Below, piece by piece: positions 7,369-61,450 of a stretch of DNA of 64,000 nucleotides. Under the pieces are notes generated by a model. The model made no database searches. It had not been told where the DNA came from and saw nothing but the letters and a program-made list of their open reading frames with translations. Origin of the DNA: Patiria pectinifera. Taxonomy: Eukaryota; Echinodermata; Asteroidea; Valvatida; Asterinidae. The stretch spans positions 8,690,465 to 8,754,464 of the forward strand of contig CM057149.1 in assembly GCA_029964075.1 (NCBI GenBank), written 5' to 3'. Numbering within the stretch: the stretch's first letter is position 1; every line of letters begins with the position of its first letter. A program made the position numbers and the translations under genes.

Positions 7369-7872
7369 TCACGGTCCCAATTCACGCATTTGTATGCTGC
7401 ACTTTTTCAGAGAATAGTAATAGTCTTTCCATGTCTGCCATTGCACGCCCTCGGCAAATCCTACATGCCCTTGTGGGTAATATTGACCATTCAAGTGAGA
7501 GATAAAACAATGATTAAACCACCAGGCTCCAGTGCGGTATTGCGCACAATTTCCATGATTTGCCGCGTCATTGTCACGATCCTTTGTTGTGAAGGGTTGT
7601 CCTCTGTGAACCCTGGTAGCATAATCTCGGTGATACCCAAGAGAGTCACCGGCAGTGCTGCTGGCATCGTATTGGCCAATAATCAGATTGTAGTTACCCC
7701 GGGATATTTGGAAATCTGCGTACTTTGCCCATGCCGTGTTGTTCTCCCAGTCCTCTAAATCAACTCGTAGCTCCCATGTTCCTTGTGAATCATCAGACGT
7801 CAGAGTCACCAAGTTGTCATTGCCCAACCAAAACTCACCGGACAGATCACCAAAGCCAGACTGGAACTCGAA
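7369..7872 (-). pseudogene. 3' fragment of a FReD lectin gene (copy A)
   Basis: An open frame of about 168 codons starts inside the FReD at the EFQSGFGDLSGEFW stretch and runs to a normal terminus, KMREL-type (here QMRELGP), then TGA. It keeps the calcium site (KDRDND), GAWWF and SHLNG. The signal peptide, PAN module and first third of the FReD are missing. Upstream of the homology (7873-7894) is a short unrelated stretch and then the stop codon of gene B, 23 bp away. The frame is undamaged, so it is either a recent remnant or a cassette still used through exchange or splicing. I see no convincing splice acceptor, so I call it a fragment. Confidence 0.75.
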
Positions 7873-7894
7873 ATTTATGTTATACAATATAACG

Positions 7895-8941
7895 TTAAAT
7901 TCCAATTTCACGCATTTTCATGCTACATGCTTTCAGAGAATAACGCAGTTTCCATGCCGACCATTGTACGCCTTTGTAACTACCTGCATTCTCATCTGGG
8001 TAATATTGACCATTCAAGTGAGAGGAAAAACACCCATTAAACCACCAGGCTCCAGTGAATGATTGTGCACAATTCCCATTTGCCGCATCATTGTCACGAT
8101 CCTTTGTTGAGAAGGCACGTCCTCTGTGATCCCAATAGGACAATGTGTGATGCTCAAGAGCAAGAGAGTCCCCGGCAGTGCTGCTGGCATCGTATTGGCC
8201 AATATTCAGATTGTACTCACCCGGGGATATTTGGAAATCTGAGTACTTTGCCCATGCCGTGTTGTTCTCCCAGTCCTCTAAATCAACTCGTAGCTCCCAT
8301 GTTCCACGTGAATCATCAGACGTCAGAGTCACCAAGTTGTCATTGCCCAACCAAAACTCACCGGACAGATCACCAAAGCCAGACTGGTACTCGGTCCAGT
8401 TGCGGTAGAAGTCCACGCTGCCATCTCGTCGCCTCTGAAACACGATCCATCCCCCGCCGTCAGTTTCCATGTCACAGTAGACACGAAGACCGCCATTACC
8501 GAATCCCTCTAGGTAGATTGTGTAGATACCGCTTAAACAATAACCGGCATCTAAGAGCATCTTGCAACTTCTGTAGCGATTCAAGGAGCTATCAGTCAGT
8601 GAGTAGAGAGGTGTGTCCTCATCTGCATCAAAGTACACACTCCCTTGAGTTGCATTGAAGTCTTTGGGGTGCTCTCGTCTTGTGACAATGTTCAGCTCGC
8701 ACATTTTACTGCAGTCGTTAAAGTTAAACGACTTGCAACGTTCATCCATGCTGCATTCCCGTCCGCAGATGACACGAGATCGCACAGTTTTGTTTGCATA
8801 TGCAAACCCTTGTAGTGCGCGATTTTCCGCAGCGTACATGATTTGTTGGCGTAGATGAAACTGATGTCCACCGACAAAAGTTATCACAACCAAAAATTGC
8901 ATCAGATTCAACACTTTGAAACCAGCATTTAGTTTCGTCAT
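7895..8941 (-). CDS. Secreted PAN-FReD lectin, copy B
   Basis: Predicted secreted lectin of 348 residues. I chose the Met at 8941 because it lines up with the starts of D, E and H; a Met 14 codons upstream is in frame but would spoil the signal peptide. Residues 1-25 are a signal peptide. Residues about 36-115 are a PAN/Apple-like module with Cys59, 63, 69, 77 and 81. Residues about 125-348 are the FReD, with Cys126/Cys156 and Cys291/Cys304 as the usual pairs, calcium-site Asp281/283/285 (DRDND) and GAWWF at 297-301. Cys339 near the C-terminus is shared by all copies; Cys135 is peculiar to B. FReDs commonly bind acetylated sugars on microbes through this C-terminal face; the ligand here is unknown. 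The loop at 260-273 is the longest in the array. Type-1 promoter. The 5' half is nearly identical to G. Confidence 0.93.
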   Translation of the reverse strand: MTKLNAGFKVLNLMQFLVVITFVGGHQFHLRQQIMYAAENRALQGFAYANKTVRSRVICGRECSMDERCKSFNFNDCSKMCELNIVTRREHPKDFNATQGSVYFDADEDTPLYSLTDSSLNRYRSCKMLLDAGYCLSGIYTIYLEGFGNGGLRVYCDMETDGGGWIVFQRRRDGSVDFYRNWTEYQSGFGDLSGEFWLGNDNLVTLTSDDSRGTWELRVDLEDWENNTAWAKYSDFQISPGEYNLNIGQYDASSTAGDSLALEHHTLSYWDHRGRAFSTKDRDNDAANGNCAQSFTGAWWFNGCFSSHLNGQYYPDENAGSYKGVQWSAWKLRYSLKACSMKMREIGI

Positions 8942-9400
8942 TTTGTAGAATCTGATCAAGCGTGTTGTTACTGAAATGTTCACTTACAGCCTGAAACAAG
9001 AGCGTCACGTTCCAAGTTGATAAAGATGCAGCTGTCGAAGTTATGAATCACATTCAACATGAAAATGACTCCTTGATTAACATGAAAATGACTCCTTGAT
9101 ACCTCTGCATTGAACCTTTATATGCTCAATTTATGACGAGTTCGATGATACGCCAACACGCAGTCAAACTTGTCCCGTATACAAACAGCTTAGCTCCGCT
9201 AACGTCGTTGCATCAGACCATCGCTAGCACTGCAGATATCAACGCGTTACCACAGCGCAGCGTCTGGAATGAAACTGGCGACGTGGCGCTCCTGGTTTCC
9301 AGCAAGGTTAGCATTCCACGGAGATGGGAAACAATGATTGGTCAGTGAAATGAATACTAATGAACAGCTCACACACGATTGGTCAACATCAAGCGCGAAC
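8942..9400 (-). promoter_or_regulatory. Type-1 lectin promoter, gene B
   Basis: A TATA-like GCATATAAAGG lies at 9115-9125, about 180 bp before the ATG. Two direct 22-bp repeats (AACATGAAAATGACTCCTTG) lie at about 9056-9100. A block at about 9241-9400 is conserved upstream of B, D, E, G and H. It includes, on the minus strand, two CCAAT boxes, a GGAAAC motif and TGTGGT (a Runx-like core). The factor names are inference from motif likeness only. Confidence 0.65.
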
Positions 9401-10484
9401 GTTCCCCTTGATAATTTGTGGTAAATTCAAAAGCTGTCAAACGTACTGTGAAGTGGAAGAATTATGATAATTATAATGAAGCGTGCGTAACGTTTTTTTT
9501 TTTAACCAATATTGATATGCTACGGTAATCGTTTTTGCCAAACAGTACTCAACGTCGTTTTGAGTGCCCTTAGTTATGTATTTATTTATTCATCTCTTTG
9601 TTAAACTGAAGCCGAGTAAATTGAAATTAAATGGGTTCAGTCGAAGATCAATTTCACAACTTATGTGAACTCACTGCAGCATCAGCAGCATGAACACACA
9701 GCTCGATCATCGTATTAGGGTCAGCGTTAACAAATATGCTTCATTCAAGTCTAAGTAACAATGACATCCAGTATGCGCCGGCGAGAAATCATCTTTCTTC
9801 ATTAGCCTCGACTCTGTCCTGACACTCGCAAACTACAATCTATTTATCAATTTGACATCACGCAGGTTCTTTTCATTGGTAGAAGCGGCTTATTTTGCGA
9901 GAGCCAAGAGGATGAAGCAAGCTAAATATTTCAATTCCTTCGTGTATATTATGCGTCAGTTCAAATATTTCAGATAAGTTTTGTTTTTTTTGCTGGTCTC
10001 ATAGGGCCAGCCTACAGTCCTCTTTGTACCTATAATGCTTTTGCCATTTAAAGGGGGCCTGCATGATAGAAATGCTAGCGTGCCCAGATTGGTCTTTACA
10101 TCAGCATATCACCAGGTAACCCTTGTACCGCCCTCTAGAGTTTAGATATGGGAAGCCAGCAGATAACAGTGGTTAGTTAGGCTGTATCCAAATCACATGG
10201 CTCAGCGTTTCGCTGACGGCGGGGCAAAAAAGTCAAGGAATTGTATTACCGCATTGGTCTTTAAAGTATCAGATCATAAATGTATTGCATAGTCCTTTAT
10301 GAACGATTTTCAACGAAATATTGTGGCAACCAATCGGGCTTGAGGGCTAGTTTTGATCCAGGCAAAAAATCGTAACATCGAGGTTGAAGTGACGTCCTGT
10401 AGACGAGGTTGAAGCACAGCCCAGTCGCCCTGCAGCTGCTAAACGCAGTACTGGAAACACATTCTTGTGAACAGAACACTTTTA
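9401..10484. other. Duplicated intergenic sequence (copy 1)
   Basis: No gene recognised. The whole stretch is nearly identical to 44400-45480, with only scattered single-base differences and small indels. Confidence 0.8.
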
Positions 10485-10690
10485 ATAAATCGGGAAAACT
10501 GAATCATGGATTGGTTCTTGTCACTCGGTTTATTCAACGTCATAGGTCATTCGAACCTTCTTTGTTTATTTTTGTGCCGCAATATACAAGCAAAATTATG
10601 ATAGCAAATAGTACACTGAGTTATAATAAAAATCAAAAATGGTTTGAAATTTGTTGTTAGCACTGAAATATACAAGCTTATCACCAAAAT
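10485..10690 (+). repeat. Dispersed ~220-bp repeat
   Basis: Core TTGGTTCTTGTCACTCGG at about 10511, followed by the 'gccgcaatatacaagcaaaat' block shared with the other copies. The second half is more degenerate here. Confidence 0.8.
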
Positions 10691-11235
10691 AAACGCGTTT
10701 ACGTCAACCAAACATAATGTAGTTTTCTGCTACCTGCGCACGCTATTACAGTTGTCATTCAAGGAAAATTAAATTAATTTGGAGTTGTTTTATTTTCTCC
10801 AAATTAGTATCAAAAGTAGACAGTGCATAACGTGAACCTTCAGATTGAGATTATCTTATGACTTAAAATGGGTTATCATCTTTTCTTTATTATCGTCTTT
10901 CCTCTAAGACCACCCACAGGCTGTCGGAGACCAGAACAAGAAATGTTTAATTCTTATTATTATAATTATTATCTATCATAATTATTTTCTTTTAATTTGT
11001 ACTGTCTGTCCGTCTTATTTGATTTTGGCGCAACGACAAAACCTCTATGTACAACAACTGAAAGTGCAAAGCTGAAGCTTTTACATTAGTTGAAAAACAT
11101 TTTAATTGTAATTTTTGACTTGTGAAATCACTGATATTATTTTGTTGTACTCTATTTCATAGATGTCACATTCTATTTGTAAAATATATACAGTAAAGGA
11201 TTTATAAAACATGTTAATTGTATTCATTATTTGTT

Positions 11236-13470
11236 TCCCTATTTATAATAAGGGAATAAATGTGTGTTTGGGAGGTATTATAGCACTCTGTTTAAGACCG
11301 GTTGGAGTCTGGATGGGTAATTATCACCCATACAGACTCCAACCGGTCTTAAACAGAGTGTTTAATACAGACCGAATACACATTTATTCCCATTCATAAA
11401 AACCTTTTCTGTCAAAAAAACACATCTTTTCCGTCCAAAAATCAAAAAAAGTCAAAAACTAGACATTGCTAACCATTTTGCTCAACAACTTTACTTCATG
11501 TTGTATCAAACACCCCTTTGACTATACAACGGAATGTCCCTCTACAATTCCTTACCTGATAAGGAGATTGGCGCAAGCGTAGCGCGTACTGCGCGATGTC
11601 GCGCAGAACGCGCACCTGGGGCGTTGCGTTGCGAATTTAGGACTACAAAATACTGACTCACTGGTAGTATTGCGCTTGCATACGTGAGTAAAATGAACGT
11701 TCAACCAATTAAACGGTAAAAGGCACTGGATTTCATAGCAGTCCAAATGTCATGTGACACTGGAAAAGTGTTAAAGACCAGCCAGCTATGTCTGTATCAT
11801 CCGTTTAAGACCGGCCACGTGACGGGCTCTCGACCGATAGGAATGGGTAAACTGTATATAAGGAATGTATGAATGATTATTCATAAATACGAAGACCTTT
11901 ACCCCTACTGATCGAGAGCTCGTCACGTGGCCGGTTTTAAACGGTTGTGCTGGCTGGTCTTGAACACTTTTCCAGTGACACATGAAATTTGGACTCTTAT
12001 GAAATGTGGTGCCAGTACCGTTTTATTGGTTGAACGTAACGTTCACAGTCCTCACGTAGACGTTAGCCCAGGTTGGACGAAGTCTTCATTGCAATACGAC
12101 TAACGTCCAGGACAAGACTTTTCTACATGAAACCACCCCAACATTTTTACCAGAGTTTTGTTATGTTTTACCTCGTTATAGAAGCTTATTTCACGCCTAC
12201 ATACTCTATGTATCCTTATCTATTGGCCACTGGGTTCAGGAATTCCATATGTGATGCTGACTGGCGTTAATCAGGAAAATAAACTCCAAAGCAACGTTAA
12301 ACTTGTACGTGTTTGTAGTCGCTTTTCATCAGTTTATTCCCAGAGTCGTACGTCATGTACAATGTACATGATATGTACAAATGTACGTGCGTACAATCCG
12401 AAAGCGCGCACGCACGCTAAGCGCCCTCATTTGTTTAGTTTTGGTTGGAACCGTGACGTCACTCCAGCCAACCGATGTCAGGAAAACGCTCAACCAATGA
12501 CCAAAGCCGAAACGTGTTTCTGGTAACTGGCGCAAAAACACGCTCGGTCATTGGATTAGCGATCGCACCTTCAAGTAAGTGCGCGTGCGTATGAGGGTGG
12601 TTACTAAGCAAATCGCGCGTGCGCACTGCATATTCATGCAGCATAGTCTGTCCCCCGGGCCAGATGTGATATGAGCGTCGAGAATAATTGTCCGGTCTAG
12701 GGAACCAGACTACACGCTGCACAGTACAGACGTACATGTACGACTAGAATAGACTCGGCGGTGAGAAACTGATGAAAAGAGACTAAACACGTACAAGTTT
12801 AACGATGCTTTTGAGTTTATTTTCCTGATTGACGTCAGTCAGCATGGCATATGGAATTCCTGAACCCAGCGTACTAACAGATAAGGACACATAGAATACT
12901 ACGACGTAAAAATTAGCTTCTCCAACAAGGTAGAAATATTAAAATTATTGGTCAGAAATGTCACATGAATGTTTTTGTTCGGTTGTGAGCACATGTGTAC
13001 TCAGGACTCCCTCCGTAACGTAGGGAGGAAAGGGAGTCCACCAGGGCTAACGTAGACGTGTGCAATACTACCAGTGAGTAACTTTTGTATAGTTCTAGAT
13101 TCGCACTACACCGGCACAGCTGCGTACTGCGTCACATCACGCAGTACGCGCGACGCGCACGCAGATCTCCAATAGCCTTACCATTGCATAGCTAGAGGGG
13201 TGTTTTGTTGAACGAAATCATGGGAAATGTATAATTTTTGACCTGTTTTGACTTTTGGACCAAACAGTTTTGCTTCATTTTACCGAAAAGGTGTTTATGA
13301 ATAGGAACAAATGTGCTTGGTCGGTATCAATCACTATGTTTAAGAGGGGTTGCAATCCGGATGTTGATAATTACCCGAGTCGAAAATGATCAGCATCAAG
13401 ACTCCAACCGGTCTTAAATAGAGTGTTTAAAGAGTGATTGAAACCTGCCAAGCACACCTTTATTCCCTTA
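11236..13470. mobile_element. Large foldback element, copy 1 (with nested insertion)
   Basis: The two arms are about 11236-11860 and 11880-13470, the latter interrupted by a 988-bp insertion at 12063-13050. They are inverted copies centred near 11865. Matching inner stretches include CACTGGAAAAGTGTT and GACCAGCCA on the left and their reverse complements at about 11940-11980; the ends match from AAGGGAATAAA inward. The left end also forms its own hairpin: 11283-11318 pairs with 11328-11363 (TTTAAGACCGGTTGGAGTCT and its complement). No coding capacity was found. A second copy lies at 46212-47445. Confidence 0.75.
12063..13050. mobile_element. 988-bp palindromic transposon with 8-bp target duplication
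   Basis: The 8-bp repeat CGTAGACG lies at 12055-12062 and again at 13051-13058. The paralogous locus at 47030 has a single CGTAGACG, so it is an empty site. The ends are inverted: TTAGCCCAGGTTGGAC on the left and TTAGCCCTGGTGGAC from the right. The interior is also inverted: about 12120-12345 pairs with about 12760-12990, including the GGAATTCCATATG-like stretches. An 8-bp duplication is typical of hAT and P superfamilies. No transposase frame is present, so it is non-autonomous. Confidence 0.85.
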
Positions 13471-14758
13471 TTTATTTATTAAGTTTTTAAAGTATTCCCC
13501 GTGCTATTTTTGAGTTTCACCTCGAAACATCGATTTTATTTTCTAACTGCTATTTTCCTGGTTGTTTTGAATGAGACATTGAACAGAAAAAATCCACCGA
13601 CGCTTAGTTATTGATTTTCTTTCTTCACACACAAATATACTGGCTGTCAGAAAATAATTATGTTCTCGCCCTTTCAGATAAGCCTTTTTTAGATGGTTAC
13701 AGACGTCAACATTTTAAATAATTAAATCAAAACACATTAACTGATGATTGGTGTAGAGAAAGAACCTCATATTTTGAAAAACACGCAGGTTATACAACTT
13801 TAAGTTTGTTTTCAACGAATGAAATGCAAAACTGCCAAATAAATGAAAAGACAGAGCAGACAACCTTTAAATGGCAAAGAGGGATCAAAGAGTTCTCCGA
13901 ACAAAAATAAAGATTAACAGAACATTGACAAAATCGTCAAATTTTACAAAATATACAGCATCCATGTCGATAATCTATCACATTCAAGTAATAATCACAA
14001 TAACTGCATCGTAGGACTATGTTTCTATTTACAATAACAGCAAAACGCACAACCATTGTTTTAGATTCCAGGCTATAACTGTATGAAAACAAATGGTAGT
14101 TGGCCTTTGTTAATAGTGACAGTATTTTGTCCATCAAGACTTAAAATTAGCTTTCGTTTTTTTGTGAACACTGGTCAGGTTCGACTACTTTGTTGCTTCG
14201 CCTGACATTCAGAGATGTATCAAATTGCATGCTACAGGGCCAGATTACACGTTATTTCAAATCCTTTGTATCATAAAAATGTTACGGCAAAAGTCTATGT
14301 CTTACTGCTGAAGATTCCTTAGCATAATTATGTACTGTGATAAACAATTTCGTACTCTCTAACAAGTAAAAATAGTGAAAACGAAATCTTTAACGAGCCA
14401 TAATTATAGTGTGTTTAACTCTTTTAGATTAAGTTTGCATCTTGTGGGGGTGAAAAAATAATCGAAGATTTAATTAACTTTCACACGTTTGAAAATGTTA
14501 TAGGAGACAACTTCGAGTGGTTTTTCACTGTTTTACATTTTAGAGAGTAGGCGTATTTTAGGGCAATTTGTATTTTCAAATTTTCTAACACTAAATACTG
14601 AAATTGTTGTTTTTCAGTAGTTTTATTTCTTTCTCTCTCTATTTTTTATCGGGGGGGGGGGGCAAAGACAGGGGATTCAGACACCTCCGGTCGTGCTAGG
14701 TACCTTGGAGATGTTTTCTCTCCTCAGGTGCAAATTCGTAACACGTTTGCAATGAGTA
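13471..14758. other. Intergenic and 3' flank of C
   Basis: Nearly identical to 47445-48745. A G-tract (14651-14662) and 'caaagacaggggattca' mark the 3' flank shared with H. No gene recognised. Confidence 0.7.
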
Positions 14759-15802
14759 TTATATATGTCCCATTTCACGCAATTTCATGCTGCACGTTTT
14801 CAGAGAATCATAAAAGCCACTCCACGGGTACCATTGCATGCCCCTGCTTCCAATATTACGCCCATCGGCGTAATATCTCCGACCATTCAAATTGGACTTC
14901 AAACACCTTTGAAACCACCAGGCTCCTGTGTACGATTTTGCACAACTTGACGACTCTCTGGCATCATTGTCCTGATCCTTTGTTGAGAAGGGAAAACCTC
15001 TATGATACCCAAGAGAGTCACCGGCAGTGCTGTTGGCATCGTATTGGCCAATATTCAGATTGTACTCACCCGGGGATATTTGGAAATCTGAGTACTTTGC
15101 CCATGCAGTGTTGCCCTCCCAGTCCCCCAAATCAACTCGTAGCTCCCATGTTCCACGTGAATCATTAGACGTCATAGTCACCAAGTTGTCATTGCCCAAC
15201 CAGAACTCACCGGACAGATCGCCAAAGCCAGACTGGTAATCGGCCCAGTTACGGTAGAAGTCCACGCTGCCATCTTGTCGCCTCTGAAACACGATCCATC
15301 CTCCGCCGTCAGTTTCCATGTCACAGTAGACACGAAGACCGCCGTCACCGAATCCCTCCAAGTAGATTGTGTAGATACCGCTTGAACGATAACCGGCATC
15401 AAAGAGCATCTTGCAACTTCTGTAGCGATTCATGGGGATATCAGTCAGTGAGTAGAGAGGTGTGTCCTCATCTGCATCAAAGTACACACTCCCTTGAGTT
15501 GCATTGAAGTCTTCGGGATGATCTCGTCTTGTGGCAAGGTTCAACTCGCATATTTTATTGCAGTCGTTGAAGTTAAACGACTTGCAACGTTCATCCATGC
15601 TGCATTCCCGTCCGCAGATGACACGAGATCGCACGGTTTTGGTTGCATATGCAAACCCTTGTAGTTTAAGATTGTCAGCAGCATAAAATGTATGTTCCCG
15701 TGTGTAAGATGAAGTTCCCAATCCGGAGACAATCAAGATATTTCTTTGGAACACCAATGACACTATGTAAAATAACTCCAAAACAAAGTTGTGTTTCGCC
15801 AT
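14759..15802 (-). CDS. Secreted PAN-FReD lectin, copy C (type-2 leader)
   Basis: 347 residues starting at the Met at 15802 (MAKHNFVLELFYIVSLVFQ), a good hydrophobic signal sequence that matches I and F. The frame runs 49 codons further upstream, but that part lies in the conserved promoter region. A short type-specific stretch follows (GLGTSSYTREHTFYAADN), then the PAN-like module with the same five cysteines as B, then the FReD. The calcium site reads KDQDND. The binding face differs strongly from B: GAWWFQRCLKSNLNG, RRYYADGRN, and a PWSGFYDSLK stretch instead of WKG(Y)YYSLK. The loop after GDSL is short. H carries nearly the same C-terminal third. Predicted secreted, sugar or microbe binding by family; no direct evidence here. 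Confidence 0.93.
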   Translation of the reverse strand: MAKHNFVLELFYIVSLVFQRNILIVSGLGTSSYTREHTFYAADNLKLQGFAYATKTVRSRVICGRECSMDERCKSFNFNDCNKICELNLATRRDHPEDFNATQGSVYFDADEDTPLYSLTDIPMNRYRSCKMLFDAGYRSSGIYTIYLEGFGDGGLRVYCDMETDGGGWIVFQRRQDGSVDFYRNWADYQSGFGDLSGEFWLGNDNLVTMTSNDSRGTWELRVDLGDWEGNTAWAKYSDFQISPGEYNLNIGQYDANSTAGDSLGYHRGFPFSTKDQDNDARESSSCAKSYTGAWWFQRCLKSNLNGRRYYADGRNIGSRGMQWYPWSGFYDSLKTCSMKLREMGHI

Positions 15803-24527: not shown

Positions 24528-25562
24528 CTAATTGGTGTCGAATGGCCCCAATTCACGCATTTTCATGCTGCATGTTTTCAGAGCATACCAATCCCCTTTC
24601 CATCCCTTCCATTGCATTCCCAGGGCATATGTTTCACGCCCAGCTGGGAAATATGGACCATTCAGGTGAGAGACAAAACATGCACCAAACCACCAGGCTC
24701 CTTTCCAGGATAGTGCACAATTTTTCGGCCATGCATCATTTTCACGATCCTTTGTTGAGAAGGGACGTCCTCTGCTATACGCAAGAGAGTCACCGGCAGT
24801 GCTGTTGACATCGTATTGGCCAATATTCAGATTGTACTCACCCGGGGATATTTGGAAATCTGAGTACTTTGCCCATGCCGTGTTGTTCTCCCAGTCCTCT
24901 AAATCAACTCGTAGCTCCCATGTTCCACGTGAATCATCAGACGTCAGAGTCACCAAGTTGTCATTGCCCAACCAGAACTCACCGGACAGATCGCCAAAGC
25001 CAGACTGGTACTCGGCCCAGTTACGGTAGAAGTCCACACTGCCATCTTGTCGCCTCTGAAACACGATCCATCCTCCGCCGTCAGTTTCCATGTCACAGTA
25101 GACACGAAGACTGCCATTACCGAATCCCTCTGGGTAGATTGTGTAGATACCGCTTGACCAATAGCCGGCATCTAAGAGCATCTTGCAGCTTTTGTAGGAA
25201 TTCAAGGGGCTATCAAACAGTGAGTAGAGAGGCGTGTCCTCATCTGCATCAAAGTACACACTCCCTTGAGTTGCATTGAAGTCTTTAGGGTGCTCTCGTC
25301 TTGTGGCAAGGTTCAGCTCGCACATTTTACTGCAGTCGTTAAAGTTAAACGACTTGCAACGTTCATCCATGCTGCATTCCCGTCCGCAGATGACACGAGA
25401 TCGCACATTTTTGGTTGCATATTCAAACCCTCGAAGTGCCCGATTTTCTGCGGCGTACATGATCTGTTGGCGTGGATGATATTGATACCCACTGACAAAT
25501 GTGACCACTTCCAAAATGATCATCAGTTTAACAACTTCCAAATCGGCGTTCGGTTGTGCCAT
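24528..25562 (-). CDS. Secreted PAN-FReD lectin, copy D
   Basis: 344 residues from the Met at 25562, with a type-1-like signal sequence (MAQPNADLEVVKLMIILEVV) ending near VSG. The PAN-like module has the usual five cysteines; the FReD begins at about residue 121 (SYKSCKML). Its binding face is its own: short loop AYSRGRPF, calcium site KDRENDA (Asp to Glu at the second acidic position), WPKNCALSWKGAWWFGACF, and GPYFPAGRETYALGMQW. The C-terminus has four extra residues (FDTN), shared in length with the plus-strand gene at 1-22. Otherwise the framework is near identical to B and G. The role by family is secreted pattern recognition. Confidence 0.93.
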   Translation of the reverse strand: MAQPNADLEVVKLMIILEVVTFVSGYQYHPRQQIMYAAENRALRGFEYATKNVRSRVICGRECSMDERCKSFNFNDCSKMCELNLATRREHPKDFNATQGSVYFDADEDTPLYSLFDSPLNSYKSCKMLLDAGYWSSGIYTIYPEGFGNGSLRVYCDMETDGGGWIVFQRRQDGSVDFYRNWAEYQSGFGDLSGEFWLGNDNLVTLTSDDSRGTWELRVDLEDWENNTAWAKYSDFQISPGEYNLNIGQYDVNSTAGDSLAYSRGRPFSTKDRENDAWPKNCALSWKGAWWFGACFVSHLNGPYFPAGRETYALGMQWKGWKGDWYALKTCSMKMRELGPFDTN

Positions 25563-28809: not shown

Positions 28810-29829
28810 TCAGGGACCCAGTTCACGTATTTTCATGCTGCATGATTTCAGAGAATAATAATGCCCTTTCCATGCCTTCCACTGCAGACCACGGGCATAA
28901 TCTACATGCTCAAACGGAAAATATGGACCATTCAAGTGAGAGTGAAAACAAGCATTAAACCACCAGGCTCCTTTCCAGGCCTGTGCACAATTATACGACA
29001 AGGCATCATTGTCACGATCATTTGTTGAGAAGGGACGTCTCTTATGCCACCGAAGAGAGTCACCGGCAGTGCCGCCGACGTGCCGATCATACTTCAGATT
29101 GTACTCACCCGAAGATATTTGAAAATCTGCGTACTTTGCCCATGCCGTGTTGTTCTCCCAGTCCTCTAAATCAACTCGTAGCTCCCATGTTCCACGTGAA
29201 TCATTAGACGTCAGAGTCACCAAGTTGTCATTGCCCAACCAAAACTCACCGGACAGATCACCAAAGCCAGACTGGTACTCGGTCCAGTTACGGTAGAAGT
29301 CCACGCTGCCATCTTGTCGCCTCTGAAACACGATCCATCCCCCGCCGTCAGTTTCCATGTCACAGTAGACACGAAGACTGCCATTACCGAATCCCTCTGG
29401 GTAGATTGTGTAGATACAGCTTGAACGATAACCAGCATCTAAGAGCATCTTGCAACTTTTGTAGCGATTCAAGGAGCTATCAGTCAGTGAGGAGAGAGGT
29501 GTGTCCTCATCTGCATCAAAGTACACACTCCCTTGAGTTGCATTGAAGTCTTCGGGGTGCTCTCGTCTTGTGGCAAGGTTCAACTCGCACATTTTATTGC
29601 AGTCGTTAAAGTTAAACGACTTGCAACGTTCATCCATGCTGCATTCCCGTGCACAGATGACGCGAGAACGCAGAGTTTTGGTCGCATATGCTAACCCTTG
29701 TAGTGCGCGATTTTCTGCAGCGTACATGAGTTGTTGCCGTGTAGGAAATTGATGTCCACTGACTAAAATGACCACCTCCAAAAGTACCATTACATTACAA
29801 ACTTTGAGACCGGCGTACAGTTTTGCCAT
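28810..29829 (-). CDS. Secreted PAN-FReD lectin, copy E
   Basis: 339 residues from the Met at 29829 (MAKLYAGLKVCNVMVLLEVV), the shortest intact copy. The PAN module reads RVICARECSMDERCKSFN: Ala in place of the Gly seen in most copies, a mark shared with H only. The FReD keeps the framework but differs in a further stretch where other copies have LNIGQYDA (here LKYDRHVGG). The loop is RWHKRRPF and the calcium site NDRDND. The face reads YNCAQAWKGAWWFNACFHS and PFEHVDYARGLQWK. An extra Cys (RSSCIYTIY) replaces Gly; B has an extra Cys two positions away. Secreted recognition lectin by family. Confidence 0.93.
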   Translation of the reverse strand: MAKLYAGLKVCNVMVLLEVVILVSGHQFPTRQQLMYAAENRALQGLAYATKTLRSRVICARECSMDERCKSFNFNDCNKMCELNLATRREHPEDFNATQGSVYFDADEDTPLSSLTDSSLNRYKSCKMLLDAGYRSSCIYTIYPEGFGNGSLRVYCDMETDGGGWIVFQRRQDGSVDFYRNWTEYQSGFGDLSGEFWLGNDNLVTLTSNDSRGTWELRVDLEDWENNTAWAKYADFQISSGEYNLKYDRHVGGTAGDSLRWHKRRPFSTNDRDNDALSYNCAQAWKGAWWFNACFHSHLNGPYFPFEHVDYARGLQWKAWKGHYYSLKSCSMKIRELGP

Positions 29830-42898: not shown

Positions 42899-43942
42899 TT
42901 ATGGTCTCAATTCACGCATTTTCATGCTGCATGTTTTCAGAGAATAATAATACCCTTTCCATGTCTCCCATTGCACTCCAATGCTATGTTGGACACGCCC
43001 AAATGGGTGATATGGACCATTCAAGTGAGAGAGAAAACAATGATTAAACCACCAGGCTCCTGTGTAGGTTTGTGCACAATTTGATGACGAATCATCATTG
43101 TCGCAATCTTTTGTTGAGAAGGGCCGTCCTCTATGATACCCAAAGTGACTTCTGTCATCCCCAAGAGAGTCACCGGCAGTACTGTTTGTATCGTATCGAC
43201 CGACGATCAGATTGTACTCACCCGGGGATATTTGGAAATCTGAGTACTTTGCCCATGCCGTGTTGTTCTCCCAGCCGCCTAAATCAACGCGTAGCTCCCA
43301 TGTTCCTTGTGAATCATCAGACGTCAGAGTCACCAAGTTGTCATTGCCCAGCCAGAACTCAACGAACATATCGCCAAAGCCAGATTGGTACTCGGTCCAG
43401 TTACGGTAGAAGTCCACACTGCCATCTTGTCGCTTCTGAAACACGATCCATCCCCCGCCGTCAGTTTCCATGTCACAGAACACACGAAGACCGCCATTAC
43501 CGAATCCCTCTGGGTAGATTATGTAGATACCGCTCGAACGAAAACCGGCATCTAAGAGCATCTTGCAACTTCTGTAGCGATCGAAGGAGCTATCAGTCAG
43601 TGAGTAGAGAGGTGTATCCCCATCTGCATCAAAGTACACACTCCCTTGAGTTGCATTGAAGTCTTCGGGATGCTCTCGTCTTGTGGCGAGGTTCAACTTG
43701 CACATTTTATTACAATCGTTAAAGTTAAATGACTTGCAATGTCCATCCATGCTGCATTCCCGTCCGCAGATGACACGAGATCGCACAGTTTTGTTTGCAT
43801 ATGCAAACCCTTGTAATGCGCGATTTTCCGCAGCGTACATGATTTGTTGGCGTAGATGAAACTGATGTCCACCGACAAAAATTATCACAACCAAAAATTG
43901 CATCAGATTCAACACTTTGAAACCAGCATTTAGTTTCGTCAT
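42899..43942 (-). CDS. Secreted PAN-FReD lectin, copy G
   Basis: 347 residues from the Met at 43942 (MTKLNAGFKVLNLMQFLVVI), chosen as for B. The leader and upstream are nearly identical to B, so G is the duplicate of B's 5' half. Odd points: CSMDGHCKSFN (others have DERCKSFN), GDMFVEFWLG where all others have GDLSGEFWLG, and calcium site KDCDNDD, which adds a Cys. The face has a mid-length loop (GDDRSHFGYHRGRPF), SSNCAQTYTGAWWFNHCFL, and PFGRVQHSIGVQW. The two framework changes could alter folding, though the frame is intact. Secreted lectin by family. Confidence 0.92.
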   Translation of the reverse strand: MTKLNAGFKVLNLMQFLVVIIFVGGHQFHLRQQIMYAAENRALQGFAYANKTVRSRVICGRECSMDGHCKSFNFNDCNKMCKLNLATRREHPEDFNATQGSVYFDADGDTPLYSLTDSSFDRYRSCKMLLDAGFRSSGIYIIYPEGFGNGGLRVFCDMETDGGGWIVFQKRQDGSVDFYRNWTEYQSGFGDMFVEFWLGNDNLVTLTSDDSQGTWELRVDLGGWENNTAWAKYSDFQISPGEYNLIVGRYDTNSTAGDSLGDDRSHFGYHRGRPFSTKDCDNDDSSSNCAQTYTGAWWFNHCFLSHLNGPYHPFGRVQHSIGVQWETWKGYYYSLKTCSMKMRELRP

Positions 43943-44229
43943 TTTGTAGAATCTGATCAAGCGTGTTGTTACTGAAATGTTCACTTACAGCCTGAAACAA
44001 GAGCGTCACGTTCCAAGTTGATAAAGATGCAGCTGTCGAAGTTATGAATCACATTCAACATGAAAATGACTCCTTGATTCAACATGAAAATGACTCCTTG
44101 ATACCTCTGCATTGAACCTTTATATGCTCAATTTATGACGAGTTCGATGATACGCCAACACGCAGTCAAACTTGTCCCGTATACAAACAGCTTAGCTCCG
44201 CTAACGTCGTTGCATCAGACCATCGCTAG

Positions 44230-44405
44230 CACTGCAGATATCAACGCGTTACCACAGCGCAGCGTCTGGAATGAAACTGGCGACGTGGCGCCCCTGGTTT
44301 CCAGCAAGGTTAGCATTCCACGGAGATGGGAAACAATGATTGGTCAGTGAAATGAATACTAATGAACAGCTCACACACGATTGGTCAACATCAAGCGCGA
44401 ACGTT
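44230..44405 (-). promoter_or_regulatory. Type-1 lectin promoter, gene G
   Basis: Nearly identical to the B promoter, including the TATA-like GCATATAAAGG at about 44119-44129 and the duplicated 22-bp motif at about 44056-44102. Confidence 0.65.
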
Positions 44406-46211
44406 CCCCTTGATAATTTGTGGTAAATTCAAAAGCTGTCAAACGTACTGTGAAGTGGAAGAATTATGATAATTATAATGAAGCGTGCGTAACGTTTTTT
44501 TTTTTAACCAATATTGATATGCTACGGTAATCGTTTTTGCCAAACAGTACTCAACGTCGTTTTGAGTGCCCTTAGTTATATATTTATTTATTCGTCTCTT
44601 TGTTAAACTGAAGCCGAGTAAATTGAAATTAAATGGGTTCAGTCGAAGATCAATTTCACAACTTATGTGAACTCACTGCAGCATCAGCAGCATGAACACA
44701 CAGCTCGATCATCGTATTAGGGTCAGCGTTAACTAATATGCTTCATTCAAGTCTAAGTAACAATGACATCCAGTATGCGCCAGCGAGAAATCATCTTTCC
44801 TCATTAGCCTCGACGCTGTCCTGACACTCGCAAACTACAATCTATTTATCAATTTGACATCGCGCAGGTTCTTTTCATTGGTAGAAGCGGCTTATTTTGC
44901 GAGAGCCAAGAGGATGAAGCAGGCTAAATATTTCAATTCCTTCGTGTATATTATGCGTCAGTTCAAATATTTCAGATAAGTTTTTTTTTTTTTTGCTGGT
45001 CTCATAGGGCCAGCCTACAGTCCTCTTTGTACCTATAATGCTTTTGCCATTTAAAGGGGGCCTGCATGATAGAAATGCTAGCGTGCCCAGATTGGTCTTT
45101 ACATCAGCATATCACCAGGTTACCCTTGTACCGCCCTCTAGAGTTTAGATATGGGAAGCCAGCAGATAACAGTGGTTAGTTAGGCTGTATCCCAATCACA
45201 TGGCTCAGCGTTTCGCTGACGGCGGGGCAAAAAAGTCAAGGAATTGTATTACCGCATTGGTCTTTAAAGTATCAGATCATAAATGTATTGCATAGTCCTT
45301 TATGAACGATTTTCAACGAAATATTGTGGCAACCAATCGGGCTTGAGGGCTAGTTTTGATCCAGGCAAAAAATCGTAACATCGAGGTTGAAGTGACGTCC
45401 TGTAGACGAGGTTGAAGCACAGCCCAGTCGCCCTGCAGCTGCTAAACGCAGTACTGGAAACACATTCTTGTGGACAGAACACTTTTAATAAATCGGGAAA
45501 ACTGAATCATGGATTGGTTCTTGTCACTCGGTTTATTCAACGTCATAGGTCATTCGAACCTTCTTTGTTTATTTTTGTGCCGCAATATACAAGCAAAATT
45601 ATTATAGCACATAGTACACTGAGTTATAATAAAAATCAATAATGGTTTGAAATTCGTTGTTAGCACTGAAATATACAAACTTCAACGTCAACCAAACATA
45701 ATGTAGTTTTCTGCGACCTGCGCACGCTATTACAGTTGTCATTCAAGGTAAATTAAATTAATTTGGAGTTGTTTCATTTTCTCCAAATTAGTATCAAAAG
45801 TAGACAGTGCATAACGTGAACCTTCAGATCGAGATTATCTTATGACTTAAAATGGGTTATCATCTTTCCTCTAAGACCACCCACAGGCTGTCGGAGACCA
45901 GAACAAGAAATGTTTAATTCTTATTATTAAAATTATTATCTATCATAATTATTTTCTTTTAATTTGTACTGTCTGTCCTTCTTATTTGATTTTGGCGCAA
46001 CGACGAAACCACTATGTACAACAACTGAAAGTGCAAAGCTGAAGCTTTTACATTAGTTGAAAAACATTTTAATTGTAATTTGTGACTTGTGAAATCACTG
46101 ATATTATTAAATAATTTTTGTTGTACTCTATTTCATAGATTTTACATTCTATTTGTAAAATATACATAGTAAAGGATTTATAAAACATGTTAATTTTATT
46201 CATTATTTGTT
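44406..46211. other. Duplicated intergenic sequence (copy 2)
   Basis: Partner of 9401-11235, with the dispersed repeat at 45485-45690. Small indels only (for example a missing stretch near 45870 relative to 10880). No gene recognised. Confidence 0.8.
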
Positions 46212-47445
46212 TCCCTATTCATAATAAGGGAATAAATGTGTGTTTGGGAGGTATTATAGCACTCTGTTTAAGACCGGTTGGAGTCTGGATGGGTAATTAT
46301 CACCCATACAGACTCCAACCGGTCTTAAACAGAGTGTTTAATACAGACCGAATACACATTTATTCCCATTCATAAAAACCTTTTCTGTCAAAAAAACACA
46401 TCTTTTCCGTCCAAAAATCAAAACAAGTCAAAAACTAGACATTACTAACCATTATGCTCAACAACTTTACTTCATGTTGTATCAAACACCCCTTTGACTA
46501 TACAACGGAATGTCCCTCTACAATTCCTTACCTGATAAGGAGATTGGCGCGCGCGTAGCGCGTACTGCGCGATGTCGCGCAGAACGCGCACCTGGGGCGT
46601 TGCGTTGCGAATTTAGGACTATAAAATACTGACTCACTTGTAGTATTGCGCTTGCATACGTGAGTAAAATGAACGTTCAACCAATTAAACGGTAAAAGGC
46701 ACTGGATTTCATAGCAGTCCAAATGTCATGTGACACTGGAAAAGTGTTAAAGACCAGCCAGCTATGTCTGTATCATCCGTTTAAGACCGGCCACGTGACG
46801 GGCTCTCGACCAATAGGAATGGGTAAACTGTATATAAGGAATGTATGAATGATTATTCATAAATACGAAGACCTTTACCCCTACTGATCGAGAGCTCGTC
46901 ACGTGGCCGGTTTTAAACGGTTGTGCTGGCTGGTCTTGAACACTTTTCCAGTGACACATGAAATTTGGACTCTTATGAAATGTGGTGCCAGTACCGTTTT
47001 ATTGGTTGAACGTAACGTTCACAGTCCTCACGTAGACGTGTGCAATACTACCAGTGAGTAACTTTTGTATAGTTCTAGATTCGCACTACACCGGCACAGC
47101 TGCGTACTGCGCCACTCACGCAGTACGCGCGACGCGCACGCAGATCTCCAATAGCCTTACCATTGCATAGCTAGAGGGGTGTTTTGTTGAACGAAATCAT
47201 GGGAAATGTATGATTTTTGACCTGTTTTGACTTTTGGACCGAACAGTTTTGCTTCATTTTACCGAAAAGGTGTTTATGAATAGGAACAAATGTGTCGGTA
47301 TTAATCACTATGTTTAAGACAGGTTGCAGTCCGGATGCTGATAATTACCCGAGTCGAAAATGATCAGCATCAAGACTCCAACCGGTCTTAAATAGAGTGT
47401 TTGAAACCTGCCAAGCACGCCTTTATTCCCTTATTTATTTATTAA
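46212..47445. mobile_element. Large foldback element, copy 2 (uninterrupted)
   Basis: Same arms and terminal hairpin as 11236-13470, but without the nested 988-bp element: the site reads CTCACGTAGACGTGTGC at 47027. It gives the clean structure, about 620-bp arms around a short centre near 46845. Confidence 0.8.
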
Positions 47446-48745
47446 GTTTTTAAAGTATTCCCCGTGCTATTTTTGAGTTTCACCTCGAAACATCGATTTT
47501 ATTTTCTAACTGCTATTTTCCTGGTTATTTTGAATGAGACATTGAACAGAAAAAATCCACCGACGCTTAGTTATTGATTTTCTTTCTTCACACACAAATA
47601 TACTGGCTGTCAGAAAATAATTATGTTCTCGCCCTTTCAGATAAGCCTTTTTTTAGATGGTTACTGACGTCAACATTTTAAATAATTAAATCAAAACACA
47701 TTAACTGACGATTGGTGTAGAGAAAGAACCTCATATTTTGAAAAGCACGCAGGTTATACAACTTTAAGTTTGTTTTCAACGAATGAAATGCAAAACTGCC
47801 AAATAAATGAAAAGACAGAGCAGACAACCTTTAAATGGCAAAGAGGGATCAAAGAGTTCTCCGAACAAAAATAAAGATTAACAGAACATTGACAAAATCG
47901 TCAAATTTTACAAAATATACAGCATCCATGTCGATAATCTATCACATTCAAATAATAATCACAATAAACTGCATCATAGGACTATGTTTCTATTTACAAT
48001 AACAGCAAAACGCACAACCATTGTTTTAGATTCCAGGCTATAACTGTATGAAAACAAATGGTAGTTGGCCTTTGTTAATAGTGACAGTATTTTGTCCATC
48101 AAGACTTAAAACGAGCTTTCGTTTTTGTGTGAACACTGGTCAGGTTCAATTACTTTGTTGCTTTTGCCTGACATTCAGAGATTATCAAATTGCATGCTAC
48201 AGGGCCAGATTACACGTTATTTCAAATCCGTTGTATCATAAAAATGTCACGGCAAAAGTCTATGTCTTACTGCTGAAGATTCCTTAGCATAATTATGTAC
48301 TGTGATAAACAATTTCGTACTCTCTAAAAAGTAAAAATAGTGAAAACGAAATCTTTAACGAGCCATAATTATAGAAGATAACTTCTTTCGAGTGTGGTTA
48401 ACTCTTTTAGATTAAGTTTGCATCTTGTGGGGGTGAAAAAATAATCGAAGATTTAATTAACTTTCACACGTTTGAAAATGTTATAGGAGACAACTGCGAG
48501 TGGTTTTTCACTGTTTTACATTTTAGAGAGTAGGCGTATTTTAGGGCAATTTGTATTTTCAAATTTTCTAACACTCAATACTGAAATTGTTGTTTTTCAG
48601 TAGTCTTATTTCTTTCTCTCTCTATTTTTTATCGGGGGGGGAGGGGGCAAAGACAGGGGATTCAAACACCTCCGGTCGTGCTACGTGTACCTTGGAGATG
48701 TTTTCTCTCCTCAGGTGCAAATTCGTAACACGTTTGCAATGAGTA
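47446..48745. other. Intergenic and 3' flank of H
   Basis: Partner of 13471-14758, including a G-tract at 48634-48647. No gene recognised; the frame at 48048-48287 has no equivalent intact in the partner. Confidence 0.65.
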
Positions 48746-49777
48746 TTATTTATGTCCCATTTCACGCAATTTCATGCTGCACGTTTTCAGAGAATCATAA
48801 AGGCCACTCCACGGGTACCATTGCATGCCCCTGTCGCCAATATTACGCCCATCGGCGTAATATCTCCGACCATTCAAATTGGACTCCAAACACCTTTGAA
48901 ACCACCAGGCTCCTCTGTACGATTTTGCACAACTTGACGACTCTATGGCATCATTGTCCCGATCCTTTGTCGAGAAGGGAAAACCTCTATGATACCCAAG
49001 AGAGTCACCGGCAGTGCTGCTGGCATCGTATTGGCCAATATTCAGATTGTACTCACCCGGAGATATTTGGAAATTTGAGTACTTTGCCCATGCCATGTTG
49101 TTCTCCCAGTCCTCTAAATCAACTCGTAGCTCCCATGTTCCTTGTGAATCATCAGACGTCAGAGTCACCAAGTTGTCATTGCCCAACCAGAACTCACCGG
49201 ACAGATCGCCAAAGCCAGCCTGGTAATCGGCCCAGTTACGGTAGAAGTCCACGCTGCCATCTTGTCGCCTCTGAAATACGATCCATCCTCCGCCGTCAGT
49301 TTCCATGTCACAGTAGACACGAAGACCGCCGACACCGAATCCCTCCAAGTAGATTGTGTAGATACCGCTTGAACGATAACCGGCATCAAAGAGCATCTTG
49401 CAACTTCTGTAGCGATTCACCGGGTTATCAGTCAGTGAGTAGAGAGGTGTGTCCTCATCCGTATCAAAGTACACACTCCCTTGAGTTACATTGAAGTCTT
49501 CGGGGTGCTCTCGTCTTGTGGCAAGGTTCAACTCGCACATTTTATTGCAGTCGTTAAAGTTAAACGACTTGCAAAGTTCATCCATGCTGCATTCCCGTGC
49601 ACAGATGACGCGAGAACGCAGAGTTTTGGTCGCATATGCTAACCCTTGCAGTGCGCGATTTTCTGCAGCGTACATGAGTTGTTGCCGTGTATGAAATTGA
49701 TGTCCTCTGACTAAAATGACCACCTCCAAAAGTACCATTACATTACAAACTTTGAGACCGGCGTACAGTTTTTCCAT
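48746..49777 (-). CDS. Secreted PAN-FReD lectin, copy H (mosaic of E and C types)
   Basis: 343 residues from the Met at 49777 (MEKLYAGLKVCNVMVLLEVV). Residues 1 to about 105 follow E (ICARECS, ALQGLAYATKTLRSR). From about TDNPVNRYRSCKMLFDAGYR it follows C (LFDAG, YLEGFG, NWADYQ). The middle (TLTSDDSQGTWELRVDLEDW) is like B/G, and the binding face is again C (GAWWFQRCLESNLNG, RRYYADGRN). So type-1 control is joined to the binding domain otherwise found with type-2 control. Calcium site KDRDND. NVTQG and FDTDED differ from the common NATQG and FDADED. All framework cysteines are kept. Likely functional, secreted. Confidence 0.93.
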   Translation of the reverse strand: MEKLYAGLKVCNVMVLLEVVILVRGHQFHTRQQLMYAAENRALQGLAYATKTLRSRVICARECSMDELCKSFNFNDCNKMCELNLATRREHPEDFNVTQGSVYFDTDEDTPLYSLTDNPVNRYRSCKMLFDAGYRSSGIYTIYLEGFGVGGLRVYCDMETDGGGWIVFQRRQDGSVDFYRNWADYQAGFGDLSGEFWLGNDNLVTLTSDDSQGTWELRVDLEDWENNMAWAKYSNFQISPGEYNLNIGQYDASSTAGDSLGYHRGFPFSTKDRDNDAIESSSCAKSYRGAWWFQRCLESNLNGRRYYADGRNIGDRGMQWYPWSGLYDSLKTCSMKLREMGHK

Positions 49778-58215: not shown

Positions 58216-58238
58216 CTCTCGTCATCATGCAATCAAAG

Positions 58239-59514: not shown

Positions 59515-59745
59515 AACTGGGAAAACTGATCAATCATGGATAGGTTCTTGTCACTCGGTTTATTCAACGTCATAGGTCATTAGAACCGTATTTTTTGCTA
59601 GTGCGCAATATACAAGCAAAATAACAAACAGCAAACTGAGTGATAAGAATCAATAATTGTTTGCTTCTTATCACTCAGGTTATTCCTTGTCATATGTCAT
59701 TATTTACATTATGCAATGTACAGGCAAAATAGCAGAATAAACACA
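59515..59745 (+). repeat. Dispersed ~220-bp repeat
   Basis: Core TAGGTTCTTGTCACTCGG and second half 'gcttcttatcactcagg', with GCAAACTGAGTGATAAGAAT between. This is one of the most complete copies. Confidence 0.8.
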
Positions 59746-60412
59746 TTTAGATCCAACCACGTTATTGCAGTTTTCTGCTCTGTGTATCTTTATACTCCAT
59801 AATATAAGTTATCATTCAAGGTTTATTAAATTTGATTTATTTCATCTTCTCATATTGGTACCCGAAAGTAGACAGGGCATACTTACATTATGTGACAATT
59901 TCAGTTTCAAATATACTAATGAAACGCTTAAGTGACTTCGCGCAGAATTTGCCCTTTAGTGGTGGTGTTTCCAAAGTTGAAAAACAGGGGGATGAATGGG
60001 GACGGTTTGACATCAAAATTATGCTTCTTTTTCTCAAGAGTGCCCCTTTTTTACGAGTGCTTTTTTAACGCCCCGCAAGCATTCCACCATGAATAGCGCC
60101 ACCTTTTGTTCGATAGTGCCCAAGATAGAAATATGGTGTATTATTATGCATCGTGTAAGTGTTATACAAAACATCATAGGTATACCTGCCAAACATCTAT
60201 AACTATTTTGTTTCTAACAACATAGTTTAACTTTAATCAGTCTTTTATTTAGGAAGGCCGGGCAGGGATTTCACATCCACACTCAGGTCGGTTCCGTCAC
60301 TTTGGAATTTGTCCTGCCCCTTCCTGGCGGGCGTATCAGACTTGGGTAAAAAAATACATTCAATTTTAAGTTTACAATAACCAACTTTAAGACATGTTCA
60401 AAAAAAAGGTAC
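59746..60412. other. 3' side of gene I, nothing firm recognised
   Basis: Contains traces of the lectin-unit flank (GGGGATGAATGGGGACGGTT resembles 28420). The frame at 59832-60068 has no known domain. Confidence 0.45.
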
Positions 60413-61450
60413 TCAGGGTCCCATTGCACGCATTTTCATCTGGCAGGTTCTCAGAGAATAGGAAGGGCCTTTCCAGTGATACCAATGCACGCCCCTATCA
60501 CCAGCTGTTACATGCTTATTGGGGTAATATCGACCATTCAAGTTGGAGTGCAAACAAACATTAAACCACCAGGCTCCGTGGTAGGATTGTGCGCAACTTG
60601 ATACCCATGCATCATTGTCACGATCGTTTGTTGAGAAGGGACGTCCATTGCTATACGCAAGAGAGTCACCGGCAGTGCTGCTGGCATCGTATTGGTCAAT
60701 GTTCAGATTGTACTCACCCGGGGAGATTTTGAACTCCGAGTACTTTGCCCAAACCGTGTTGCCCTCCCAGTCCTCTAAATCAACTCGTAGCTCCCATGTT
60801 CCACGTGAATCATCAGACGTCACAGTCACCAAGTTGTCGTTGCCCAACCAGAACTCACCGGACAAATCGCCAAAGCCAGACTGGTACTCGATCCAGTTAC
60901 GGTAGAAGTCCACCCTGCCATCTTGTCGCCTCTGAAATACGATCCATCCCCCGCCGTCAGTTTCCATGTCGCAGTAGACACGAAGACTGCAATTACCGAA
61001 TCCCTTTGGGTAGATTGTGTAGATACCGCTTGAACGATGACCGGCATCTAAGAACATCTTGCAACTTCTGTAGCGATTCAAGGAGCTATCAGTCAGTGAG
61101 TAGAGAGGTGTGTCCTCATCTGCATCAAAGTACACACTCCCTTGAGTTGCATTGAAGTCTTCGGGATGCTCTCGTCTTGTGGCAAGGTTTAACTCACATA
61201 TTTGATTGCAGTCGTTAAAGTTAAACGACTTGCAACGTTCATCCATGCTGCATTCCCGTCCGCAGATGACACGAGATCGCACGGTTTTGGTTGCATATGC
61301 AAACCCTTGTAGTTTAAGATTGTCAGCAGCATAAAATGTATGTTCCCATGTGTAAGATGAAGTTCCCAATCCGGAGACAATCAAGATAGTACCTTGGAAT
61401 ACCAATGACACTACGTAAAATAACTCGAAAACAAAGTTGAGTTTCGCCAT
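60413..61450 (-). CDS. Secreted PAN-FReD lectin, copy I (type-2 leader)
   Basis: 345 residues from the Met at 61450 (MAKLNFVFELFYVVSLVFQ), as in C. The leader and upstream are close to C. The FReD is its own: the loop AYSNGRPF, calcium site NDRDND, VSSCAQSYHGAWWFNVCLHS, and YYPNKHVTAGDRGVHWYHWK. The last stretch is SLRTCQMKMRAMGP, so the C-terminal Cys is kept while neighbours change. YPKGFGNCSLRVYC carries an extra Cys, and VWAKYSEFKISPGEYNLNID has several framework changes; this makes it the most diverged intact copy. Secreted recognition lectin by family. Confidence 0.92.
   Translation of the reverse strand: MAKLNFVFELFYVVSLVFQGTILIVSGLGTSSYTWEHTFYAADNLKLQGFAYATKTVRSRVICGRECSMDERCKSFNFNDCNQICELNLATRREHPEDFNATQGSVYFDADEDTPLYSLTDSSLNRYRSCKMFLDAGHRSSGIYTIYPKGFGNCSLRVYCDMETDGGGWIVFQRRQDGRVDFYRNWIEYQSGFGDLSGEFWLGNDNLVTVTSDDSRGTWELRVDLEDWEGNTVWAKYSEFKISPGEYNLNIDQYDASSTAGDSLAYSNGRPFSTNDRDNDAWVSSCAQSYHGAWWFNVCLHSNLNGRYYPNKHVTAGDRGVHWYHWKGPSYSLRTCQMKMRAMGP

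Follow-up and report, generated by a model that had tools for sequence, protein, structure and literature searches.

The window analyzed here, 64,000 nucleotides of Patiria pectinifera DNA (assembly GCA_029964075.1, contig CM057149.1, positions 8,690,465 to 8,754,464 of the forward strand), carries an array of genes that each encode a signal region, a PAN domain and a fibrinogen-related domain (FReD), and these probably belong to a germline repertoire of secreted PAN-FReD lectins in which positive selection has diversified the ligand pocket. The family is positively selected, with a class of codons whose ratio of nonsynonymous to synonymous rates (dN/dS, or omega) exceeds 1 and is robust to recombination in our own implementation of the site models. 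Diversifying selection on the binding face is supported, and different binding specificities among the copies are plausible.

Seven intact signal-PAN-FReD copies (A to G) and two broken ones, each a single open reading frame (ORF), lie at the coordinates listed below, in the numbers that the original prediction had given. The intact copies are all on the minus strand and encode 339–348 amino acids counted from a conserved ATG; residue numbers below are those of copy C.

7372..7869, minus strand: broken copy, an orphan 3' cassette with FReD from about residue 184 in an open frame without a start, 25 bp downstream of the copy A stop codon
7895..8941, minus strand: copy A, intact signal-PAN-FReD gene (PAN 8627-8824, FReD 7910-8575)
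14759..15802, minus strand: copy B, intact; 5' half and upstream DNA in common with G, 3' half and 3' flank in common with F
24528..25562, minus strand: copy C, intact; reference for residue numbering
24588..24782, minus strand: hypervariable face of C, codons 261-325, which spans all ten positions compared with S1 and extended S1 of FIBCD1
28810..29829, minus strand: copy D, intact; 5' half and upstream DNA in common with F
38288..38803, minus strand: broken copy; an internal deletion joins the signal peptide to residue ~213, with an in-frame stop near the end
42899..43942, minus strand: copy E, intact; upstream DNA 97-100% and first 200 coding bases 99% identical to A, 3' flank unrelated to that of A
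48746..49777, minus strand: copy F, intact recombinant; 5' flank and signal D-type, face and 3' flank B-type
60413..61450, minus strand: copy G, intact; 5' half and upstream DNA in common with B

Copies B and G have extra upstream in-frame ATGs, so that their ORFs can begin at 15949 and 61534, respectively (conserved starts 15802 and 61450). The coding sequence runs from the signal region through the stop codon as one ORF without interruption; the genes had been called intronless and single-exon, and this holds for the coding sequence, introns in untranslated regions lying outside the view of these data. Both PAN_1 and Fibrinogen_C exceed the Pfam cut-offs in the intact copies scanned (A, B, E and G), Fibrinogen_C with 221–239 bits against a cut-off of 22 in all four, which places them in the FReD lectin superfamily; at E 0.001 these were the only Pfam domains in the four copies, with no collagen-like or immunoglobulin superfamily (IgSF) domain. 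Among solved structures, ficolin-2 chains are the best matches to copy C (E 4e-63). Aspartates at 274 (66 of 69 copies, near and distant sets below) and 276 (68 of 69), which we take to be the calcium-binding pair, accompany Cys295, the equivalent of FIBCD1 Cys414 (69 of 69), and Cys282 (invariant among the 46 near copies). The Asp pair and disulfide cysteines of the P-subdomain frame are therefore present, and the proteins would be expected to be secreted and to bind calcium.

The wider family was searched in the 613.5 Mb genome with copy C as query; the window sits in a 40 Mb contig. This genome also has a bindin match (E 1e-33, positions 100-165 of 238), which points to an echinoderm, bindin being known from sea urchins and sea stars; a COX1 search gave no match. 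Since 117 of 661 search candidates were scored, family counts are lower bounds: at least 58 close relatives including the seven window copies (aligned over ~300 or more residues at 65% identity or higher), 47 on the window contig and 11 elsewhere. Our near set is the 46 intact copies of the 47 on the window contig (the 47th is partial, and the 11 near copies elsewhere were left out), and our distant set is 23 PAN-FReD copies mostly on other contigs; a subset of 31 cluster copies and the window set of seven were used beside them. Partial copies were excluded (19 partial stretches were dropped along with one copy lacking an ATG, and four others were taken back).

The copies had been described as nearly identical in the signal, PAN and first FReD parts and sharply variable at the C-terminal end. 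The second half of that description is borne out over the last ~80 residues, where amino-acid difference in the window set is 0.369 (residues 256-337) versus 0.128 over residues 51-255; the first half stands as well, though copies also differ in the signal region, where the proportion of nonsynonymous differences (pN) is 0.32 over residues 1-34. After residue 260, near-invariant frame residues alternate with highly variable ones in per-site entropy. Invariant or nearly so are F268, D276, C282, G288, W291, C295, LNG 300-302, G315 and W318; highly variable are 277-280, 284-287, 293-294, 296-297, 303, 307-314, 317, 319-320 and 323-325. The distant family tends to vary at the same positions (Spearman 0.82 within the face, with 16 of 20 sites above 2.2 bits shared). 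The GDSL-to-F loop spans 8–17 residues and, as predicted, changes length by whole codons.

The original prediction also held that conserved codons of the variable end keep their silent bases, citing the run GGA GCC TGG TGG TTT. All 7 window copies carry that run unchanged, as do 31 of the 46 near copies, and just three of its five codons are informative, as TGG has no synonym. The general claim fails: silent differences at codons of identical amino acid are 0.168 in the face versus 0.084 in the core (window set), the face/core silent ratio is 2.07 (jackknife confidence interval 1.73–2.48, 31 cluster genes), and silent change is higher in the face for 9 of the 11 amino acids tabulated, Phe and Cys being the exceptions. 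Read from silent change, the face would be the older and selected part and the core would have been partly homogenized by recombination.

Within the face, frame codons have a pN/pS (pS, the proportion of synonymous differences) of 0.06–0.07, and variable codons picked by entropy have values of 1.08 and 1.00; because this pick is circular, we fitted site models to the face (residues 256-337). For the 46 copies the log likelihoods were -5459.8 (M1a), -5364.3 (M2a), -5431.2 (M7), -5425.3 (M8a) and -5351.7 (M8). M8 places 25% of sites at omega 2.7 (twice the log-likelihood difference, 2dlnL, of M8a vs M8 is 147), M2a places 36% at omega 3.0, and 17 face sites have a posterior above 0.95. The same comparison gave omega 3.7 on 23% of sites with a 2dlnL of 162 for the 31 cluster copies, and omega 4.4 on 24% with a 2dlnL of 29.7 for the seven window copies, a set smaller than those in our null simulations. 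Twelve such simulations with omega at most 1 gave 2dlnL values from -21 to 7.6, and eight of them included recombination, mimicked by shuffling a third of the tips in one half; the nulls were fitted on FastTree trees and the real data on an IQ-TREE tree.

An independent test defined variable sites only in the 23 distant copies and used six near pairs picked only by their 3' flanks, namely those with the highest 3'-flank identity and no copy shared (the L028 pairs, with flanks at 85–90%, and pairs that reuse a copy were excluded). At the distant-defined sites nonsynonymous change in these pairs is 0.130, compared with 0.037 in the flanks (3.5-fold, p=6e-10; flank identity comes from local alignments and is perhaps slightly high) and 0.044 at silent sites of the face (p=1.6e-4). 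Two other pair selections were set aside. Choosing 14 near pairs for low silent distance (pN/pS 1.66 at variable sites) introduces an upward bias, which is why pairs chosen by flank were preferred, and a third list with other partners, which gave 5.2 times the flank rate, is not used as support.

The selected face was compared with the S1 pocket of FIBCD1, whose residues were taken from PMC3908420 and PMC10825690. Ten residues of S1 and its extension were considered, and FIBCD1 numbers were converted to those of copy C by subtracting 119, a spacing checked on ficolin alignments and not on the FIBCD1 sequence itself. Tyr405, Arg412, Asn413, His415, Tyr431, Ala432, Trp443 and His396 then correspond to 286, 293, 294, 296, 312, 313, 324 and 277, and these 8 of the 10 pocket positions rank in the 30 most variable of 212 FReD positions (p=2.4e-6); of the other two, His382 (263) varies moderately and Cys414 (295) does not vary at all. 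Ten of the 46 near copies lack position 324. None of the 46 near and none of the 23 distant copies has the full S1 pocket (aromatic, His, Tyr/Phe, Ala, aromatic, for Tyr405, His415, Tyr431, Ala432 and Trp443), and a His occupies the His415 position in 2 of the 23 distant copies and in none of the 46 near ones. Lectin activity may well be retained, with ligands that would differ between copies.

Several of our measurements weigh against a selected pocket. The original prediction named a dN/dS at or below 1 in the variable stretch as evidence against itself, and on average this is what we find: the ratio of median dN to median dS over 261-325 (pairwise NG86) is 0.61 in the window and 0.68 in the 46 copies (over 35-260 it is 0.38 and 0.40), an average pulled below 1 by the invariant frame codons interspersed with the fast ones. 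The prediction is thus supported in part: diversifying selection on the binding face is upheld by the site classes at omega 2.7–4.4, by the flank test and by the S1 overlap, but not by the average. Negative 2dlnL values in the nulls, down to -21, are optimizer noise, and differences under ~20 therefore carry no meaning. Signals outside the near face are weaker and may themselves be inflated (2dlnL 57 in the core, 33 in the distant face, 13 in the distant core), and that of the core possibly indicates some inflation. When the most extreme pair, L024/L025, is removed from the flank test, the rate at distant-defined sites is 0.066 versus 0.036 in the flanks (1.9-fold, p=0.029), and whole-face change is not above the flank rate (0.74-fold, p=0.22). 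Pooled over the six pairs, the whole face has a pN/pS of 1.02 (1.05 without L024/L025) versus 0.42 in the core, and face changes per pair range from none in L017_5682/L018_891 to ~37 nonsynonymous in L024/L025. The same test in the distant family, with three or four pairs, is not significant. AlphaFold2 gave an unusable model for the seven window proteins (mean pLDDT 29.9), and the pocket was therefore mapped via alignment to solved relatives and published residues. Counted within the 82-position face, the pocket positions are less strongly enriched (p=0.003 by entropy). The site model picks out 5 of the 10 (286, 294, 312, 313 and 324; p=0.03 within the face), and 293 and 296, the Arg412 and His415 equivalents, are among the most variable and are not called selected.

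Recognition of microbes would be the selecting function under the reading that we prefer. It is rather unlikely, though worth weighing, that the face selection is real and its driver is instead self/non-self or gamete recognition, wound closure or regeneration, or a single fast-evolving partner. FREP families of Apostichopus are tandemly expanded and induced in visceral regeneration (PMC5638244), ficolin is among the expanded regeneration-related families of a brittle-star genome (PMC11310086), and the partner cannot be named from sequence alone. Against such a driver, the variable part is equivalent to the acetylated-sugar site of FIBCD1, and many parallel copies with different faces would suit many partners better than one.

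Breakpoints lie within the genes. A duplication unit is present twice in the window:

7907..15703, strand not assigned: duplication unit comprising the core of A, intergenic DNA and B from near the start of its coding sequence; both ends inside genes
42911..49690, strand not assigned: second copy of the A-B unit, comprising the core of E, intergenic DNA and F

The two copies match in two alignments (94.8% and 95.0%), and 12064-13046 has no counterpart in the second. Copies A, C, D, E and F mutually share ~430-440 bases of upstream DNA; beyond that, and 3' of the stop codon, aligned non-sibling pairs are mostly at background (G and L022_1729 stay weakly similar). Past their nearly identical 5' ends, A and E fall to 64–73% identity in the face and then to background, the B/F match begins at about coding base 100 with none before it, and D/F and B/G match on the 5' side only. 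The face and 3' flank of D are in common with L016_4908 and L021_843, elsewhere on the same chromosome. Among 18 pairs (not independent) with a 3' flank at 85% or higher over at least 400 bases, 7 also share the 5' flank (85%, 300 bases) and 11 fall short. The core tree and the face tree reject each other (5000 resamplings), and part of the contrast between frame and face arises from core recombination, a factor absent from the original prediction. Turnover by mid-gene crossover would also account for the orphan cassette behind A and for the deleted copy at 38.3 kb.

Apparent exchange of a smaller block was also seen. In a second PAN-FReD cluster on contig C4, comparison of L043 1090-2157 with L042 indicates an apparent conversion of half a face between neighbours: the L043_1090 protein equals L042_7139 over residues 258-293, yet its flanks match L042_4842 (92.7% on the 5' side and 98.5% on the 3' side). 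In a six-gene lineage picked after seeing the data (L017_5682, L018_891, L021_5078, L022_1729, L024_895 and L025_6105), 148 of 284 changed codons (52%, 15 pairs) differ at two or three bases versus 34 ± 4% in simulations, none of 60 of which reach this value, and silent changes are half the simulated number. Eleven sister pairs show a weaker excess (33 of 116, 28%, versus 22 ± 3.5%; 1 of 60 simulations reaches it). The excess could be due to stronger selection than one omega class describes, to multi-base mutation or to short conversions.

These data bear on the view that conversion from other copies mainly swaps faces blockwise and that single codons are under little selection, a view that we consider improbable. 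The L043_1090 exchange and the multi-base excess both favour it, as do identical variable 12-base blocks, which exceed simulation at tree distances of at least 0.2 (110 of 16,507 comparisons; simulated mean 33.8, maximum 67) and number 46 of 15,752 at 0.3 or more (mean 15.2, maximum 40). However, at distances of at least 0.5 there are none in 13,512 comparisons, and 38 of the 40 matches listed for 0.3 or more begin in codons 306-310 and are therefore read as sharing within subfamilies. For the L024 and L025 faces, no donor above 90% turned up in the assembly (the next best matches reach 90% and 84%), and the young pairs D/L016_4908, B/F and L035/L036 have scattered amino-acid changes and few silent ones. 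It is more improbable still that there is no diversifying selection, and that a relaxed face together with gene conversion of the remainder mimics a hypervariable end: the twofold silent divergence of the face, the median dN/dS below 1 and the conflict of the core and face trees suit this, but frame codons amid the variable ones are held at the low pN/pS given above, site classes reach omega 2.7–4.4, recombining nulls do not reproduce the signal and hypervariable sites outpace flanking DNA.

A germline repertoire with a selected pocket would then work as follows. The scaffold (PAN, the N-terminal half of FReD, and the disulfide and calcium frame of the P-subdomain) would be conserved and partly homogenized, while ~25–30 codons in and around the canonical acetyl-binding pocket would vary, many under selection for new amino acids. 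Unequal (non-allelic) crossing over in the conserved core would turn over copy number and 5'/3' combinations, producing duplication units that run from mid-gene to mid-gene and re-pairing faces with other upstream regions and signal peptides. We go further only tentatively, and with somewhat more doubt than belief: this may be an innate anticipatory echinoderm repertoire in which the ancestral acetyl pocket was abandoned for what is now a selected, highly variable, paratope-like surface, in which core crossovers create new genes by joining interchangeable 5' modules (upstream region and signal) to 3' modules (binding face), and in which at least one lineage replaces entire codons at a rate above that predicted from stepwise substitution, a hint of some further diversifying process.

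The copies share the FReD with ficolins, tachylectin-5A (TL5A) and FIBCD1 and keep the S1 cysteine and the presumed calcium aspartates; ficolins have a collagen-like stalk, whereas here PAN stands in front and Pfam finds no collagen-like domain in the four copies scanned. Snail (Biomphalaria) FREPs are likewise diversified FReD proteins, with diversity mainly in IgSF regions and partly somatic, whereas the diversity measured here sits in the FReD pocket; mollusc FREPs carry one or two IgSF domains before the FReD, where the same four copies have PAN_1 and no IgSF. One Biomphalaria gene and some Lottia FReDs combine PAN/Apple with FReD, and two of the FREPs have a single exon (PMC7588048). The S1 acetyl pocket is conserved in FIBCD1, TL5A and L-/M-ficolin bar one Trp/Tyr exchange (PMC3908420), and the aromatic/His pocket of the acetyl-specific FReD lectins (TL5A, FIBCD1, ficolin-1) is complete in 0 of our 69 copies. 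Mosquito FREP/FBN proteins are also an expanded FReD family, and an earlier proposal holds that variation at their P-domain binding site would make their sugar specificities differ (PMC1242226); most members retain a four-residue aromatic funnel (PMC1242226), whereas the equivalent full pocket is absent from all 69 copies here, for which site-wise selection has been measured.

Among echinoderm families, Sp185/333 (SpTransformer) genes are also clustered, and segmental duplication, unequal crossing over and conversion have been proposed for them (PMC5103432). Compared by description only, they have two exons with repeats in the second (PMC5491942) and almost no pseudogenes (PMC5103432), whereas here there is a single ORF with a known domain pair and 2 of 9 window copies are broken. 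The sea cucumber Apostichopus has 21 tandem FREP genes on one scaffold (PMC5638244), tandem echinoderm FReDs as here; the accessible text of that paper mentions no PAN, pocket diversification or mid-gene recombination. The literature thus already describes expansions of FReD families, the pairing of PAN/Apple with FReD in molluscs and, for mosquitoes, the idea that P-domain sites vary.

Other features of the window include a satellite-like tandem array of 171-base period (5248-7035), which lies close to the orphan cassette behind copy A on its 3' side; a 2.4 kb tandem duplication between D and E (31020-35545, 98.8% identity), which holds no ATG-started ORF of 150 or more amino acids; and two intergenic regions, 35649-37783 and 56733-59243, that share 0.5–1.3 kb blocks at 88–94% identity. 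Long antisense ORFs on the plus strand opposite A, E and F (8059-8658, 43084-43659 and 48739-49494) are probably shadow ORFs of the coding strand.

To our knowledge there are few measurements of whether expanded FReD pockets are selected to differ. In the accessible parts of the open-licence literature searched, we found no study that tests an echinoderm FReD ligand pocket site by site and no report of the combination seen here. In this family scaffold and pocket can be separated codon by codon, which gives a residue list for binding tests; sibling pairs with a common 3' flank offer faces with few differences (D/L016_4908, B/F, L035/L036) or many (L024/L025), and the mid-gene geometry of recombination can be sought in populations.

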